From positions 1,116,001 to 1,180,000 of the forward strand of contig NZ_WYEU01000002.1 of NCBI RefSeq assembly GCF_015143595.1: 64,000 nt of DNA, read 5' to 3'. The notes beneath the pieces were generated by a model. The model saw only the letters and a list, made by a program, of their open reading frames with translations, was not told the DNA's origin and did not search any database. The stretch comes from Sneathiella sp. P13V-1 (GTDB lineage: Bacteria; Pseudomonadota; Alphaproteobacteria; Sneathiellales; Sneathiellaceae). Below, one piece after another: positions 10,971-18,050 of this stretch; the stretch's first letter is position 1; each line of letters begins with the position of its first letter. A program made the translations under genes and the position numbers.

Positions 10971-11005
10971 GTGTGAGAACAGTCAGCTAACTGCTGTTCT
11001 CACAC
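10971..11005. terminator. Long hairpin between convergent flgN-like and flaG-like genes
   Basis: GTGTGAGAACAG (10971-10982) is perfectly complementary to CTGTTCTCACAC (10994-11005), and the stem can extend by CAG/CTG with one bulged T. It covers the stop codon of the minus-strand flaG-like gene. There is no clean U-run on the plus strand; the minus strand continues into a pyrimidine-rich ATCTTTCTTT. It could act as a bidirectional 3' end or stability element. Confidence 0.5.
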
Positions 11006-11377
11006 TTCGCTATCTACAGCAATTCCTTCGAGCTCACGATAGTAAGCCACACGGCGAAGCACATAATCGCCAGGAAACTGCTTAACAACTTCACCAGTTT
11101 CAGAATTAACCAATCTGTAAACAAAGCGACCGCTGTCTCTATCTCTATCAATCGAAAACCGGCTATTAGGCTCACTCTCTTCTTCAAAGAAAACCCCAAT
11201 AGCTTGCTCCGCACGACGAACAGGATCCTCAATCTGAGTTTCAGATGCCTGTTGTTCTATCGCCTGCAAAGCGCCTGCTTCACCCTCTCGACGACTTCCG
11301 AATGCCTGGGTTCGACCCTCAGAACTCTTCACCTCGATCGGAGAAACCCCCGGTTTTGAAATCGGGGCTACGTCCAT
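11000..11377 (-). CDS. FlaG-like flagellar protein
   Basis: Protein of about 125 residues whose C-terminal half (about 75-115) carries the FlaG signature: FSIDRDRDSGRFVYRLV followed by NSETGEVVKQFPGDYVLR. FlaG proteins affect filament length and sit near flagellin genes; the molecular role is unclear. The N-terminal half is polar and probably disordered. ATG 11377 was chosen because GAGAGGAG stands eight bases before it; a TTG at 11398 is in frame but unlikely. It appears to be transcribed from a sigma-54 promoter about 330 bases upstream, leaving an unusually long leader. Confidence 0.65.
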   Translation of the reverse strand: MDVAPISKPGVSPIEVKSSEGRTQAFGSRREGEAGALQAIEQQASETQIEDPVRRAEQAIGVFFEEESEPNSRFSIDRDRDSGRFVYRLVNSETGEVVKQFPGDYVLRRVAYYRELEGIAVDSEV

Positions 11378-11398
11378 TATCGCAACTCCTCTCTTCAA

Positions 11399-11755: not shown

Positions 11756-11770
11756 TTAACACTTAATTAA
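11756..11770. promoter_or_regulatory. CtrA-type box
   Basis: TTAACACTTAATTAA is an exact TTAA-N7-TTAA, the binding motif of the cell-cycle regulator CtrA, and is followed by CC as in many known sites. It lies between the sigma-54 promoter and the palindrome cluster. The AT-rich context raises the chance rate, so binding is an inference. Confidence 0.5.
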
Positions 11771-11910: not shown

Positions 11911-12360
11911 TTAGATGCCGAAATGAATCTGATCTGCCCAAATTCTTTCAATTTGCCTCAACGCACTCCGAATAAGCTTCATATCAGGTGCCGGATCCGA
12001 ATTTGCCAGTTTTTGCGCCTGAGCTTCTTCGGACTTGTTCAGACGCTCAATAAGATCTAATCCTTTTTCAGAAAGACGGATCATTGTCGCTCGGCGATCT
12101 CTTTCAGATTTTTCCTGAATGAGATAGTGTTTCTGCTCCAACTTCTTAAGGTTATATGAGGCATTAGATCCTTGATAATAACCCCGTGCCATCAACTCAC
12201 GCACATTTACTTCTTCTTCACCGATATTAACCAGAAGAAGCGCTTGCACTGCGTTAATATCCTTCACACCGATCTGATCTAACTCAACGCGTACCACATC
12301 AAGAAAACGTCTGTGAAGACGTTCAATCAGCCGTGTCATTTCGCGATAATCTTCTACCAC
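11911..12360 (-). CDS. MarR-family regulator, LdtR-like
   Basis: Winged-helix MarR-family repressor or activator of 149 residues. The pattern LIERLHRRFLDVV, then INAVQALLLVNIGEEEVNVRELMARGYYQGSN and SYNLKKLEQKHYLIQ in separate segments, closely follows LdtR of Rhizobiales and Liberibacter, which controls an L,D-transpeptidase gene and stress tolerance. The wing contains ERDRRATMIRL, the conserved Asp-Arg-Arg of MarR proteins. No L,D-transpeptidase gene is adjacent, so the target is unknown. It is monocistronic with its own terminator. The GGCAA/TTGCC palindromes downstream are more probably FlbD sites than LdtR operators. Confidence 0.75.
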   Translation of the reverse strand: MVEDYREMTRLIERLHRRFLDVVRVELDQIGVKDINAVQALLLVNIGEEEVNVRELMARGYYQGSNASYNLKKLEQKHYLIQEKSERDRRATMIRLSEKGLDLIERLNKSEEAQAQKLANSDPAPDMKLIRSALRQIERIWADQIHFGI

Positions 12361-12906
12361 TGGATCCCCTTCGCAATCTTTCTTTGGGCATCAGCCCGCA
12401 ATAAGTCCCTCGTAACTTCTCTCAACAACATTAAAGAATAGTAAAACAGAACTGTTTTTCGCGAGAAAAGAGTCATGAGTAGAGAAAAACGAAATTACCC
12501 TAATCAATTTTCATCTAAAAATGCATTTCTAAGGCCACACATTAAGCAGTTAATTAATATTCAAATATAAAAGGGTTTTCTATTACCCAAAAACAAGACA
12601 ACAAAAACAATATCTAGATTGCCCCGTTAACCATACCACTAATCATAGTGCTGTATTCACATTTATCTCCAACACGCGTCTAATTTCTGATGGTTAATTC
12701 ACACGAATCAACTGTGGCATTTTCGCACACATTTCGCGATAAATTGATTAAAATTGAAATTTGAGTTGCAAAAACAAGCCGTTCAAAGGGTTAATGATTC
12801 TGCAAGAAAATTATGAATCACAACGGTTTATTAGCTTTTGCAATATAAATCTGAGGGGTCGATTCGCATAAAACTGCGACAAATGCCTCCAGAAGGAAGT
12901 GGTCTT
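12361..12906. promoter_or_regulatory. Intergenic region with CtrA half-sites and GANTC sites
   Basis: No coding sequence was seen in these 546 bases. Two CtrA-type 8-mers stand in opposite orientation, TTAACCAT at 12627-12634 and ATGGTTAA at 12690-12697. Three GANTC sequences, the CcrM methylation target, occur at 12705, 12796 and 12815. TTAATTAA around 12550 is AT-rich and near-matches the full CtrA box. It should hold the promoters of the ldtR-like gene (left) and the DUF2336 gene (right). Confidence 0.35.
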
Positions 12907-14067
12907 ATGGCTTTGAGTGAAGGTTTAGGTTTGAACGATCTGATCGCGCTATCCCGTAATGATAGCCGGGCCGCTCGTAGACGCCTTTTCGAAGATATGG
13001 GAAGTTTATTCCTCTCTGAAGAAGAGCGCATGACCGAGCAAGAACGCGCACATATTTCAGACATCATGACCAAGCTGATTAAGGAAGTAGAGATGTCAGT
13101 CAGACTATCTCTTTCAGAGAAACTCTCTGACCTTGAGGAAGCCCCAGAAGAACTTGTCACACTGCTTGCCAATGATGAAATTGACGTCGCCCGTCCGCTT
13201 CTAGTCAAAAGCCGCGTCCTTAAAGACCCGGATCTCCTCATGATTATCGAGCGGCGCAGCAAGGAACATATGCTTGCCATCACTGAACGGGATAGCATTA
13301 GCCCCCTTGTGAGCGACATGCTGATTGAACTGGGTGATGAAGATGTTATGGAACAACTTATCCGTAACAATGATGCAGAGATTTCTGAAGAGGCGCTCGC
13401 CTTATTGGTTGAGGAAAGCAGGCGTGTCGACGGTTTTCAAGAGCCCCTACTCGCAAGACACGACTTACCAACCGAACTTGCTCACAAAATGTTCTGGTGG
13501 GTATCCGCTGCTCTTAGAAGGCACATTATTGAGAATTTTAAAATCAATCCGGATTTCCTGGATCGGCAAATTCATAGATCAACTCAAGCAATATTGGACG
13601 ACGATAGCATTCCGGAATTTGGGGAGACACACGCTGATAGGCTGGCAGCACATCTTGAAGCACGAAATGATCTGACAGAGCGTACCTTGATCCAATCTCT
13701 CAAAAGCAATCAGATCAGGTTGTTTCTTGCGGGGCTTGCGATCAAATCAGGGCTGCCCCCGCAAACTCTGGGAGATTTCGTCCATAACCGAAATGCTGAG
13801 TCCATGGCGGTTGTCTGCAAGGCATTGTCATTTGATAGAAACAGTTTTTCGGCAATTTTTCTGCTCACTCGCCGTGGTGGAGCATCAACGTCAGATGGAC
13901 GCGCCGCGATCCAGCCGGCCGAGGTCGAGGCAGTTATGAAATTTTATGACAATCTGAATGTGGACAATGCACAGCTTGTGCTGGAACACTGGCGCATGAA
14001 CACAGGATATTCAGAGGCAATAGATCAAATCAACGGTAACGACAATGATCAGATGGTTTATCTATGA
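12907..14067 (+). CDS. DUF2336 domain protein
   Basis: A 386-residue, highly acidic and helical protein of the alphaproteobacterial DUF2336 family, whose function is unknown. Conserved elements are LVTLLANDEIDVARPLLV, a repeated helical region resembling HEAT-type repeats, and the PTELAHKMFWWVSAALR motif. No membrane segment or signal peptide is visible. ATG 12907 was chosen because AAGGAAGT precedes it by about six bases; an in-frame TTG at 12838 lacks this. It lies 63 bases before a histidine kinase gene and is a paralogue of the protein at 15853-16965, with the kinase between them. Confidence 0.85.
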   Translation: MALSEGLGLNDLIALSRNDSRAARRRLFEDMGSLFLSEEERMTEQERAHISDIMTKLIKEVEMSVRLSLSEKLSDLEEAPEELVTLLANDEIDVARPLLVKSRVLKDPDLLMIIERRSKEHMLAITERDSISPLVSDMLIELGDEDVMEQLIRNNDAEISEEALALLVEESRRVDGFQEPLLARHDLPTELAHKMFWWVSAALRRHIIENFKINPDFLDRQIHRSTQAILDDDSIPEFGETHADRLAAHLEARNDLTERTLIQSLKSNQIRLFLAGLAIKSGLPPQTLGDFVHNRNAESMAVVCKALSFDRNSFSAIFLLTRRGGASTSDGRAAIQPAEVEAVMKFYDNLNVDNAQLVLEHWRMNTGYSEAIDQINGNDNDQMVYL

Positions 14068-14130
14068 AGGCTGTTTTTAAGGTGAATTTGACAGGTGGGG
14101 AGTAATCAGCAGAAGCTGGTTGAAAACTAA

Positions 14131-15744
14131 ATGACAAAGAAAACATCAGGAAGTGTCGTATCATTGCGCGGTAGTGTTAAAAACACTGACAGTGCAACGA
14201 TATCAGGTATACAAAGCGCCATAAGCAGGGACTTTTTCGATGCTGTATTCGATCAAGCACAGGCGATGTATATTGCACGACCAGATGGATCAGTCCTTTA
14301 TGTAAACTCCGGTTATCAGGAAATCTTCTCCACCTCTTCCAACAGTCGCGCTAAAGACAAGTTATTCCCTTCCCTAAGCTCCGATCACCTTGAAATCATC
14401 AATCGCATTGCCGTCAGTAAGGAAGCGGAAACCAAACAGGTCGCTATAGAGACCGTAAAAGGGACGGAATATTATCTTTCTCGCCACTTCCCAATTACTG
14501 ACAATAACGACAACTTTATTGCAATTTGCGGCTCGTTTATTAATTCAACGCGTCAGGTAAATGCCGAAATACGTCTTCGCCTTGAAAAACGGCGTTTCTT
14601 GGATATTACTCGGGCAGCATCCGACTGGATTTGGGAAACAGATGCTGATGGCAGCCTCACCTATGTTTCCGATCGCGCTGTACAAGCCGTGGGCCTCCCT
14701 CCGCTTCTTCTGAAAGGGAAACAGCTTACAGATCTTGGTACCTTTAACGCAGAAACCGGCCGCTTGAGTAAGGCAGAAGCAGCTATTGCAAAGCATATCC
14801 CGTTTCGCGCTGTCCCCATGACAATCATAGGGCGTGAGGGAGATAAAAAAATCTTCAATATCAGCGGTGTACCTGTCTTCAACGAAAAAGGACGTTTTGT
14901 TGGCTACCGGGGAACAAGCGATGATATAACAGCGCGGCTTGTGGCGGAAGACGAAGCATCTTCTTCAAAAGCCGACCTTGAAATGGCCATAGCTGAAATT
15001 ACCCGCAAAAACATGCAGCTGGAAATGACCGCCAAGAAAGCTGTCGCGGCTGCACGGGCCAAAGATGAGTTTCTGGCAACCATGAGCCATGAGCTTAGAA
15101 CACCTTTAAATGCAATTATTGGTTTTGCAGAGGTGATGGGCATGGAGACCTTCGGCCCTCTTGAGGGGAAATACAAGGAATATGTGAGCGATATTCTTAA
15201 TTCTGGCCGACATCTGCTGTCGTTAATTGAGGACATCCTCGACATCGCACGTATTGAGAGCGATCGTATTCCAGTGGAAATTGAGAAAACATCTCTGCGC
15301 CAAATGATCGAAGACGCCACTTCTTTGGTCAGCAAGCACGCCGATGAAAAGTCCATCGATATCAGTGATTTTGTCGTAAATGAAGACTTTGACCTTAAGG
15401 TAGATCCGACACGCTGCTTACAGATTATCGTCAATATTTTGGGGAATGCTGTTAAATTTACCCAAAGCGGAGGAAGTGTCGGACTCGAAACACGTATTGA
15501 TGGTTCTAGCATTCTTCTAACTATTTGGGACACCGGTCCAGGTATCGATGCGTCTGAGCTTGATAATATCTTTGAAGCCTTTAGACAGGCGCATAACGGC
15601 ATCTACAGCCGAGGAGAGGAAGGCGTAGGCCTGGGCCTAACTCTTTCCCTTAAATTGGCACGTCTAATGGAGGGCGACATCACCGTCGAAAGTGAAGTTG
15701 GTGTAGGAAGTCGCTTTACAATTCGCTTACCACTAATGCTTTAA
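14131..15744 (+). CDS. Orphan PAS-domain sensor histidine kinase
   Basis: Cytoplasmic histidine kinase of 537 residues with no membrane segment. Order: PAS domain (about 35-135, QAMYIARPDGSVLYVNSGYQ), second PAS with PAC (about 155-265, DWIWETDADGSLTYVSD), a coiled linker (270-310), HisKA with the phosphorylated His320 in SHELRTPLNAI, and HATPase_c (about 420-535) with N, G1 and G2 boxes (NILGNAVKFT, WDTGPGID, GVGLGLTLSLK). It ends at the ATPase, so it has no receiver, and no response regulator is adjacent. Two DUF2336 genes flank it on the same strand, suggesting they act with it. PAS ligands are unknown. Confidence 0.92.
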   Translation: MTKKTSGSVVSLRGSVKNTDSATISGIQSAISRDFFDAVFDQAQAMYIARPDGSVLYVNSGYQEIFSTSSNSRAKDKLFPSLSSDHLEIINRIAVSKEAETKQVAIETVKGTEYYLSRHFPITDNNDNFIAICGSFINSTRQVNAEIRLRLEKRRFLDITRAASDWIWETDADGSLTYVSDRAVQAVGLPPLLLKGKQLTDLGTFNAETGRLSKAEAAIAKHIPFRAVPMTIIGREGDKKIFNISGVPVFNEKGRFVGYRGTSDDITARLVAEDEASSSKADLEMAIAEITRKNMQLEMTAKKAVAAARAKDEFLATMSHELRTPLNAIIGFAEVMGMETFGPLEGKYKEYVSDILNSGRHLLSLIEDILDIARIESDRIPVEIEKTSLRQMIEDATSLVSKHADEKSIDISDFVVNEDFDLKVDPTRCLQIIVNILGNAVKFTQSGGSVGLETRIDGSSILLTIWDTGPGIDASELDNIFEAFRQAHNGIYSRGEEGVGLGLTLSLKLARLMEGDITVESEVGVGSRFTIRLPLML

Positions 15745-15852
15745 TTCAGCTTAATTCTACATTGCCCGAAATTCATCTCGTCGATTTATCATTTATTAAG
15801 ATTACGGGGCGATCATCGGGGAATGGTATGATTTAAGTATTAGGCAAATAAA

Positions 15853-16965
15853 TTGAGTGCTCAAGGCTCTGATAACATAAACCAGATTTTGGGTCTGGTA
15901 GAACTAGCTGAGGACAGGTCTCCGACACAGCGAAAGTTCTTATACGAAAAAATCGGAAATTTTCTGATCGAAGATACTCACTCCTTCTCAACTGCAGAAA
16001 AGGAGTTGATGACGGATATTCTATGTAGAATCACGTCAGATGTTGAACATTCTATCCGTGCTCATTTTGCAAAACACATCGCCAACAAGGAAGGTATTCC
16101 TCATGACCTTCTTGTTTTCCTGGCTAATGATGAGATTGAAATTTCGCTCCCAATCTTGAAAGATTGCGGATTGTTAGATGAAACTGATCTCATTCAGGTA
16201 GTGCATACACGTTCAGTTCAGCACCAGTTAGCAATTGCTGCACGATCCAACATAAGTGGAACAGTATCAAAGGCTCTTTGCGATACTGGAAATGAAAAAG
16301 TCTGTATTGAACTTTTGAATAATCATACAGCAACCATCAACGAGAGCGAGCTCGAGTTTCTTGCGTTAAAATCAGAAAATATCGTCCCCTATCAACGCCC
16401 CCTTCTAAACCGACCATTTCTACCAGAACATATCGCCATCAAAATGTATCGTTGGGTATCGATCGCCCTGAAAGAGTTTATTAGTGAACATTTTGACATC
16501 GATCCCAGCCTTCTCCAAGTTGATCAAGCGGAACGTGAAGAAACCATTCGCTCTATTTCTGCTGAAAGCGACCCTTCGCAAATGCTTGTCAACAAATTGC
16601 ACCGTGCAGGCGAACTCTCAAATGGTTTCTTGATGAAATCTCTCAGGCAGGGCGAAATTGACCTGTTTGAAATAGGCTTTGCAAAATTGCTGGATGTAAG
16701 CAGATCAGAAATTCAAAAAATCCTATATAGTGAAGATATGCAGGTTATAGCTGTGGCATGCCGCGTTATTGAGCTGGATAAAGCCGTCTTTTCGACCCTG
16801 ATTGATCTGGTATCAAGCATCCATGAGGAGAGCGCCCCACTTGAGACAGAGGAGAAACAGGATCTGATTGCATTCTTTACGCTTCTCAAGCCGGAAGCCG
16901 CCGCGCGCGCCATTGTGAATAAATCCTTCATCAATGGTGATATCCGTTACTACGAGACAAATTAG
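15853..16965 (+). CDS. DUF2336 domain protein (second copy)
   Basis: A 370-residue helical protein clearly paralogous to the DUF2336 protein at 12907-14067: LVFLANDEIEISLPIL, LAIAARSNISGTVS and HIAIKMYRWVSIALK align with the equivalent segments there. Identity is moderate, so the copies are diverged rather than a recent duplication. A TTG start at 15853 is preceded by TAGG about eight bases away; no upstream in-frame ATG is available. The spacer from the histidine kinase is 108 bases. Function is unknown; synteny suggests shared signalling. Confidence 0.8.
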   Translation: MSAQGSDNINQILGLVELAEDRSPTQRKFLYEKIGNFLIEDTHSFSTAEKELMTDILCRITSDVEHSIRAHFAKHIANKEGIPHDLLVFLANDEIEISLPILKDCGLLDETDLIQVVHTRSVQHQLAIAARSNISGTVSKALCDTGNEKVCIELLNNHTATINESELEFLALKSENIVPYQRPLLNRPFLPEHIAIKMYRWVSIALKEFISEHFDIDPSLLQVDQAEREETIRSISAESDPSQMLVNKLHRAGELSNGFLMKSLRQGEIDLFEIGFAKLLDVSRSEIQKILYSEDMQVIAVACRVIELDKAVFSTLIDLVSSIHEESAPLETEEKQDLIAFFTLLKPEAAARAIVNKSFINGDIRYYETN

Positions 16966-17057: not shown

Positions 17058-18050
17058 GTGATTGATCCGTTTGGCAGAGAGGTTTCATATCTTCGGGTAT
17101 CCGTAACAGACCGTTGCGATTTCCGTTGCACCTACTGCATGGCGGAAAATATGACCTTCCTGCCAAAAAAAGATGTCCTTTCACTTGAAGAATTAGAAGC
17201 CATTACCGCTTCCTTCATCCGCAAAGGGGTCAAAAAGGTACGCCTGACCGGTGGAGAACCTCTGGTTCGAAAAGGAATTATGGAGCTCATCAATAATTTG
17301 GGTCGCTATATCGATAGTGGCGAGTTGCATGAACTCACCCTTACAACAAACGGCAGCCAACTTTCCAAATATGCGAAAGATCTCTATGCTGCCGGTGTAC
17401 GCCGAATTAACGTCTCTGTAGACACGCTTGATCCTCATTTATTCACGATGGTAACGCGATGGGGAGACCTGAGTAAGGTTCTAGAGGGACTGGATGCCGC
17501 TCAAGAGGCAGGATTAAAAATTAAAATTAATACGGTTGCCGTCAAAGGGGTGAATGATCACCAACTTGACGAAATGGTTGAGTGGGCTGGCGGCAGAGGT
17601 ATGGATCTGACATTTATCGAAACAATGCCAATGGGTGCAATAGATGAGCTGAGATCAGAGAAATTCCTATCGCTTGAGGAAGTAAAAAAATCACTTTCTC
17701 AAAACTGGACTTTCCAAGACACTGACTACAAAACAGGTGGTCCAGCCGATTACGTCATTGTTCAGGAAACCGGTCAGCGTTTAGGATTTATCACCCCCCT
17801 CTCCCATAATTTCTGCGAAAGCTGTAACAGAGTGCGCCTGACCTGTACCGGAATGCTGTATATGTGCCTCGGGCAAAATGACAATGCAGACCTTAAACAG
17901 GTTATTCGTAGTACAAATGGATACGAGAAACTGGATGCGGCGATTGACGAAGCCATTGGCCGCAAACCTAAAGGCCATGACTTCATGATCGACAGGAAAA
18001 ATGATCAAAAGCCAGCTGTGGCCCGTCACATGAGTGTCACTGGGGGTTAA
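17058..18050 (+). CDS. moaA: GTP 3',8-cyclase (molybdenum cofactor biosynthesis)
   Basis: Radical-SAM enzyme converting GTP to 3',8-cyclo-GTP, the first step of molybdopterin synthesis. The SAM-binding 4Fe-4S cluster is held by Cys20, Cys24 and Cys27 (CDFRCTYC); the second, substrate-binding cluster by Cys253, Cys256 and Cys270 ([10 protein letters not shown]...MC). The C-terminal GlyGly tail needed for activity is present (MSVTGG). The start is GTG. Length of 330 residues is normal. moaC is not nearby; nadK follows 54 bases downstream on the same strand. Confidence 0.96.

Follow-up and report, generated by a model that had tools for sequence, protein, structure and literature searches.

A DUF2336 gene and a PAS histidine kinase as a candidate two-gene signalling module in Sneathiella sp. 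P13V-1

What ties an orphan histidine kinase to the two DUF2336 proteins encoded on either side of it? The question arises from a 64,000-nucleotide stretch of the genome of the marine bacterium Sneathiella sp. P13V-1 (contig NZ_WYEU01000002.1, forward-strand positions 1,116,001 to 1,180,000; the window, whose own numbering is used below), in which three plus-strand genes follow one another: DUF2336 gene A (12907..14067; 386 aa, ATG start with AGAAGGAAG upstream), a gene for a soluble, non-hybrid histidine kinase of PAS-PAS-HisKA-HATPase_c architecture (14131..15744; 537 aa), and DUF2336 gene B (15853..16965; 370 aa, listed with a TTG start). An earlier reading of the sequence (the original prediction) took the two DUF2336 proteins for inputs or targets of the kinase, possibly acting near the flagellar or cell-cycle network. 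On balance, we favour the explanation that A and the kinase constitute a dedicated module of two signalling genes, in which an orphan sensor kinase has an accessory family of its own and the DUF2336 protein would act as adaptor, and that B has joined the pair at this locus. This explanation builds on the gene content of the locus, the linkage of the two gene types in other genomes, the joint history of A and kinase, an exchange of output domains that keeps the PAS domain, and CtrA-type boxes in front of members of the DUF2336 family.

A soluble PAS kinase between two DUF2336 genes

Both flanking proteins belong to DUF2336 (PF10098, gathering score 34.6 bits), with profile scores of 210.9 bits for A (match at about 13186-13983) and 182.5 bits for B (about 16141-16908), and they share 29% identity over 338 residues (E 1e-47), which bears out the predicted arrangement of a kinase between two diverged DUF2336 genes on one strand. 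Five DUF2336 genes were found in this genome, together with 47 HisKA and 51 receiver matches. Pfam recognised HisKA, HATPase_c and one PAS domain in the kinase (residues 165-268; 14623..14934, plus strand, of the SDWIWETDA type, hereafter PAS2), while the predicted model also shows an N-terminal PAS (PAS1, about residues 45-138), which in the Oceanibacterium orthologue is recognised as PAS_8. The HisKA (DHp) domain (15058..15261, plus strand) carries the phospho-accepting H320 within HELRTP and, as the N-box, G1 and G2 are intact as well, the protein qualifies as a HisKA-type sensor histidine kinase. No segment of the kinase was hydrophobic enough for a membrane helix (maximum Kyte-Doolittle mean 1.04), no receiver domain was found within it and no response regulator lies between or beside the three genes; the kinase is thus soluble and an orphan, as had been stated.

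DUF2336-kinase linkage and joint inheritance

Retrieval centred on the kinase yielded 79 loci, among which the nearest ones with a species name are from Sneathiella. The 14 best-matching ones with both flanks (L035-L048; eight Sneathiella/Sneathiellales, one Oceanibacterium hippocampi and five alphaproteobacterial or proteobacterial records) all have the order A-kinase-B (14/14), with an A orthologue upstream of the kinase in each. Among more distant kinase matches, DUF2336 was present in L050, L056, L059, L065, L095, L096 and L103 and absent from most. A survey centred on DUF2336 comprised 134 regions, which were best-scoring matches rather than a random draw; rows from Sneathiella, and a few near-duplicates from the same genus as another row, were excluded. 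In 26/134 loci, where about 1 was expected, a kinase catalytic domain is encoded on the same strand 0-2.5 kb downstream; when same-strand distances were binned by 1 kb, the 1-2 kb bin held 26 and the eleven others held 0-4 apiece. With 60 further regions picked for similarity to A, and therefore enriched by design, the kinase-downstream DUF2336 genes numbered 49. Across all labelled loci, a kinase lies downstream of 70 of the 249 DUF2336 domains, upstream of 25 and on neither side of 154, and the gap from A to the kinase (stop-to-stop between open frames) is at most 126 nt in 69/70 and negative in 37. The linkage is therefore beyond chance, and the association looked for in other genomes proved strong, with DUF2336 first and the kinase second in 20 family groups.

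In a FastTree phylogeny with midpoint root, 244 DUF2336 domains separated into a branch of 85 and one of 159. The smaller contains the SpbR orthologue of this genome and has a kinase downstream of 4 members and upstream of 1; A, B and almost every kinase-linked gene belong to the larger (kinase downstream 62, upstream 23), and in the group of 29 that includes window A, 27 have a kinase downstream. The five SpbR-branch members with an adjoining kinase are those of L145 (G058), L153, L168, L208 and L213. The fourth DUF2336 gene of the genome (L004) falls in the large branch by FastTree and beside the SpbR branch in a mixture-model tree. SpbR is reportedly a pole protein of Caulobacter crescentus, described by Wang and Bowman in 2019. 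Because NCBIfam gives this name to one DUF2336 branch, the statement that DUF2336 function is unknown was incomplete. For A and B, identity with SpbR was rejected since both score far under the 400-bit cut-off of model NF052659 (A 150, B 151.5) and the true orthologue, at 452 bits and with TTAA-N7-TTAA upstream, is encoded on contig 5 (85944-87020). SpbR and the A/B proteins have in common the Pfam family, whole-length similarity and CtrA-type boxes upstream of both branches; they differ in that SpbR is a separate paralogue in this genome and its branch is rarely kinase-linked (5/85).

The kinase tree agrees with this picture. The window kinase (as its identical copy in L003) belongs to a 28-member clade (support 0.989) in which 25 are labelled DUF2336-adjacent; of the remaining 3, L028 and L096 were adjacent on inspection, and L049, starting 696 bp from a contig end, was not judgeable. 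Across the 22 genomes that have both an SpbR locus and an A-kinase pair, the distances of A correlated with those of the kinase (r 0.87), and the partial r was 0.82 given the SpbR background of the same genomes (permutation p 0.0005 or less). A and the kinase are jointly inherited, which contact between the proteins would explain but which does not require it.

An alternative is mere co-regulation: A, kinase and B would belong to the CtrA regulon and lie in one operon but would not act on one another, A and B being SpbR-like pole proteins and the kinase working alone. Such an arrangement would sit well with the 154 of 249 DUF2336 genes that have no adjacent kinase, and with CtrA-type boxes that also precede kinase-free DUF2336 genes (18/80 in the SpbR branch). 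It would not, however, account for a kinase clade whose every testable member is DUF2336-linked while more distant relatives are often unlinked, for A-kinase distances that agree beyond the SpbR background, or for a linkage that is tracked by PAS type and not by output domain, as described next, and we consider it unlikely.

The PAS sensor, the DUF2336 fold and gene B

At two loci, L312 (family f89) and L103 (a Rhodospirillales metagenome-assembled genome), the gene that overlaps or immediately adjoins DUF2336 codes for a PAS-GGDEF-EAL protein instead of a kinase; the enzyme is encoded directly after DUF2336 in both (L312:3843-5993, minus strand; L103:336-3446, plus strand). The first PAS domains of these proteins are 40% (L312) and 43% (L103) identical to PAS2 of the window kinase, the PAS type that all three have in common. 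When 163 kinase frames and the two GGDEF-EAL proteins were ranked by PAS2 similarity, 43 of the top 45 were DUF2336-adjacent (40 labelled as such plus L028, L103 and L312), with L049 not judgeable and L052 not adjacent; this ranking is suggestive and gives no rate, because the set is enriched in DUF2336 loci. As the PAS was kept while the output domain was swapped, DUF2336 appears to go with the sensor and not with the output, and A most likely serves the PAS sensor module.

The model of A is all helical (predicted local distance difference test 75, predicted template-modelling score 0.49; 34 rows). VIA-align matched it mostly to HEAT/ARM repeat or designed helical-repeat proteins, the best row being 6fsq (Z 8.8, root-mean-square deviation 3.6 over 147 residues), and Foldseek with the same model returned no match under E 0.001. 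A search of PDB sequences with DUF2336 gave no convincing relative, engineered repeat proteins scoring best (E 6e-4 and 8e-3). Among the fold matches listed there was no known fold specific to DUF2336, which is no proof of fold novelty. DUF2336 is tentatively modelled as a HEAT/ARM-like helical solenoid, a shape that would fit a protein-binding scaffold, although a Z in this range can be generic for helical repeats. In the mechanism we propose, such adaptors would bind other proteins, and A would dock on or adjoin the kinase at its PAS sensor part, setting or localising kinase activity; the kinase itself is intact and, from its HELRTP motif, probably bifunctional. Histidine kinases with dedicated accessory proteins include KinA with KipI and CpxA with CpxP. 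As in those systems, the gene of the partner proposed to tune the kinase lies beside the kinase gene; unlike them, the partner here is a predicted HEAT/ARM-like protein of 370-390 aa, and the PAS type concerned is also found on a GGDEF-EAL enzyme.

The same evidence bears on whether DUF2336 proteins are instead targets or outputs of the kinase, either phosphorylated or bound by a phosphorylated regulator. Orphan kinases commonly have effectors encoded downstream in the same operon, B is encoded downstream of the kinase, and the conserved DUF2336 residues N112, D113 and H144 could in principle carry chemistry. The regular partner is, however, encoded upstream, and it persists beside a GGDEF-EAL enzyme with the same PAS that is unable to phosphorylate it; in addition, A is modelled as a repeat scaffold and resembles neither a receiver nor an HPt domain. 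We therefore regard the target role as improbable. Of the original alternatives, inputs or targets, the PAS-keeping swap indirectly favours an input or adaptor over a phospho-target.

The apparent symmetry of the two DUF2336 proteins turned out to be misleading, as A is the regular kinase partner and B is linked to moaA even where the A-kinase pair is absent. In a mixture-model tree, window B fell into a branch of 12 rows together with the B genes of families f2, f67 and f78 and lone genes linked to moaA (support 95; 80 in another mixture-model analysis), and only the B of f30 stayed with the A of f30 (support 98-99). In f67, lone B-branch genes (L253, L255, L257, L274) are flanked by an LdtR-like gene on one side and moaA on the other; in f56 (L311, L313, L314, L315, of which only L315 is in the mixture-model tree) they adjoin moaA, and L217 of f67 has the order LdtR-A-kinase-B-moaA. 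Taken together, the lone genes and the order in L217 identify B as a resident of the moaA locus at which the A-kinase pair comes or goes. B is the older moaA-linked gene beside the A-kinase pair, and in the proposed scheme it would be a related adaptor, long resident next to moaA, that became the third gene. In the window, moaA (17058..18050, plus strand; labelled from its sequence) is the constant downstream neighbour of B and stands outside the module.

Seven triads were present among the survey loci, in f2, f67, f78 and f30 (four). A first FastTree analysis had suggested convergent triads, with the second DUF2336 arising three times; this was withdrawn, since an approximately unbiased test (p 0.31) does not reject a single origin of all B genes, and no convergence is claimed. 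In L229 (G370), a split DUF2336 match lies behind a kinase that follows another DUF2336, possibly a decayed third triad gene. In other lineages an A-type gene stands by mtaB-ftsY, with a kinase in many and without one in at least ten loci. The ftsY-linked (mostly mtaB-ftsY) A-type genes with no adjacent HisKA kinase are those of L222, L250, L273, L292, L301, L306, L307, L317, L325 and L329, and the next open reading frame was no kinase in those looked at.

CtrA-type boxes, the cognate regulator and the flagellar neighbourhood

Published CtrA sites take the forms TTAA-N7-TTAA(C) and TTAACCAT (PMC3692519, PMC6180460, PMC11527210 and PMC7003649), and a six-base spacing is described for CtrA sites in Rhodobacter and Magnetospirillum. 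In an alignment of A promoters, the block ATTAAC(G/C)GGAATTTAA is kept in eight loci despite non-aligning flanks, and the Oceanibacterium promoter has TTAA-N7-TTAA aligned with it. This N7 box was found upstream of 47/244 DUF2336 genes (regions of up to 410 bp, with related species counted many times): before A of the Sneathiella group in 11/15 (window counted), B in 7/24, the SpbR branch in 18/80 (11/45 families), other A genes in 7/51 (5/24 families) and the others in 4/74. Culturable species with a perfect box include S. chungangensis, S. litorea and S. sedimenti. Control spacings of N2-N6 and N8-N13 occurred in 1-9 of the 244 regions each (mean 3.6). Dinucleotide shuffles gave an expectation of 0.2-0.6 per group, and the observed count was never reached in 200 trials for four of the five groups and was reached in 1/200 trials for the last (others). 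Outside Sneathiella-group loci, the box precedes 29/213 DUF2336 genes vs 1/87 control regions (before moaA, NAD kinase, ftsY, mtaB, azlC and azlD of the same loci; Fisher p 0.0005). Judging from these conserved boxes, which are a new observation for DUF2336 genes, transcription of the family may often be under CtrA. In the window, TTAACCAT occurs about 275 bp upstream of A (12627..12634, plus strand) and again at 12690..12697 (minus strand), and TTAA-N6-TTAA lies between kinase and B (15741..15754, plus strand).

CtrA control would place the module inside the CtrA cell-cycle and motility programme and could close a feedback loop. The kinase is proposed to pass its phosphate to a regulator from another locus, for which the DivK/PleD type is the most plausible candidate. 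That type is a weak guess from the phosphoacceptor domain (HELRTPLNAIIGF...FG.L..Y..Y..DI..SG.HLL.LI.DILD), which is presumed to resemble the PleC/DivJ/PdhS style; the same domain type is common among the other kinases encoded in the genome, which weakens the guess, and an assignment of the regulator from the motif was dropped for that reason. The window kinase is like PleC, DivJ and PdhS in this presumed style, PAS sensing, the lack of a receiver domain and an orphan gene, and unlike them in scoring far under the DivJ (167.6 vs 1000 bits) and PdhS (145.4 vs 2000 bits) equivalog cut-offs, in being DUF2336-linked and in having a motif that is widespread in its own genome. In PMC7003649, PdhS kinases are characterised by a highly conserved HisKA with His plus Thr four residues on, a pair that is present in the window kinase and also in many kinases of the same genome. 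A PDB search with the kinase returned generic histidine kinases, DivL among them, and tblastn against plasmids returned generic kinases only, all under 60% identity.

Several points weigh against the module of A and kinase. The 154 DUF2336 genes without an adjacent kinase and the many FtsY-linked A-type genes that stand alone imply that A has to function in the absence of a linked kinase as well. The fold matches (best Z 8.8) are within the range of unrelated helical repeats, there are two output swaps only, and the L103 DUF2336 gene is cut by a contig end. The common history of adjacent genes yields tree agreement without any contact. The window A promoter lacks the N7 box and thus a full CtrA site, and the two TTAACCAT copies upstream of A are weak alone, as the 64-kb window has 3 where 2.2 are expected. 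The literature search, finally, returned no test of DUF2336 as a kinase partner; nor did it return any mention of DUF2336, PF10098, COG5330, IPR019285 or UCP035865, or any match for SpbR together with PopZ.

If the module of A and kinase nevertheless holds, DUF2336 gains a concrete partner in one PAS-kinase clade, a candidate docking surface in the common PAS and a candidate regulator in CtrA, so that this functionally uncharacterised family can be tested as a component of cell-cycle signalling; one of the best-studied cell-cycle circuits in bacteria would then gain an input not recognised so far. DUF2336 occurs in 201/387 sampled alphaproteobacterial genomes. A bolder possibility, to be taken as tentative, is that DUF2336 proteins are class-wide, CtrA-controlled scaffolds that plug into one PAS type on kinases or c-di-GMP enzymes and form an undescribed feedback arm of the alphaproteobacterial cell cycle (CtrA -> DUF2336-sensor -> DivK/PleD or c-di-GMP -> CtrA).

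The idea that A, kinase and B tune the flagellar assembly encoded next door is very unlikely, for although the window has flagellar genes at a distance of less than 4 kb, FlgI/FlgJ/FlgN/FlaG are nearby in 11/14 Sneathiella-type or Oceanibacterium loci, FlaG has a CtrA-type box and FlgI is found in 176/201 DUF2336 genomes vs 231/387 overall, such neighbours are missing from all kinase-adjacent loci beyond the Sneathiella group (0/55), FlgI is absent from 25 DUF2336 genomes, and the co-occurrence across the 387 genomes (both 176, DUF2336 alone 25, FlgI alone 55, neither 131) is confounded by lineage and genome size. A flagellar module was accordingly rejected as a general explanation. Of the suggested link to the flagellar or cell-cycle network, the neighbourhood part is confined to the Sneathiella group, and the part that survives comes from the CtrA-type boxes and the co-occurrence with flagellar genes. 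PMC12700997, alone among the literature matches listed in using SpbR for the Caulobacter protein, reports that two Caulobacteraceae lineages have lost 26 developmental regulators, SpbR being one of them, along with flagellar and holdfast genes, in keeping with this co-occurrence. Co-occurrence with PopZ was not used, as PF10691 is present in 320/387 genomes and hardly discriminates.

Upstream of A, the window encodes FlgI, a rod-binding protein, FlaG and an FlgN-like gene (our own label). A MarR-type regulator gene, with LdtR as nearest NCBIfam model (142 bits, cut-off 250), is divergent from A (11911..12360, minus strand), so that the two have a common promoter region, and it stands outside the module. 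In the Sneathiella group, the N7 box also occurs before LdtR (9/21, partly the same divergent promoter) and, in Sneathiella-type loci, before FlaG (6/12); in the window a perfect copy lies at 11756-11770, about 360 bp upstream of the FlaG gene (11000-11398, minus strand).

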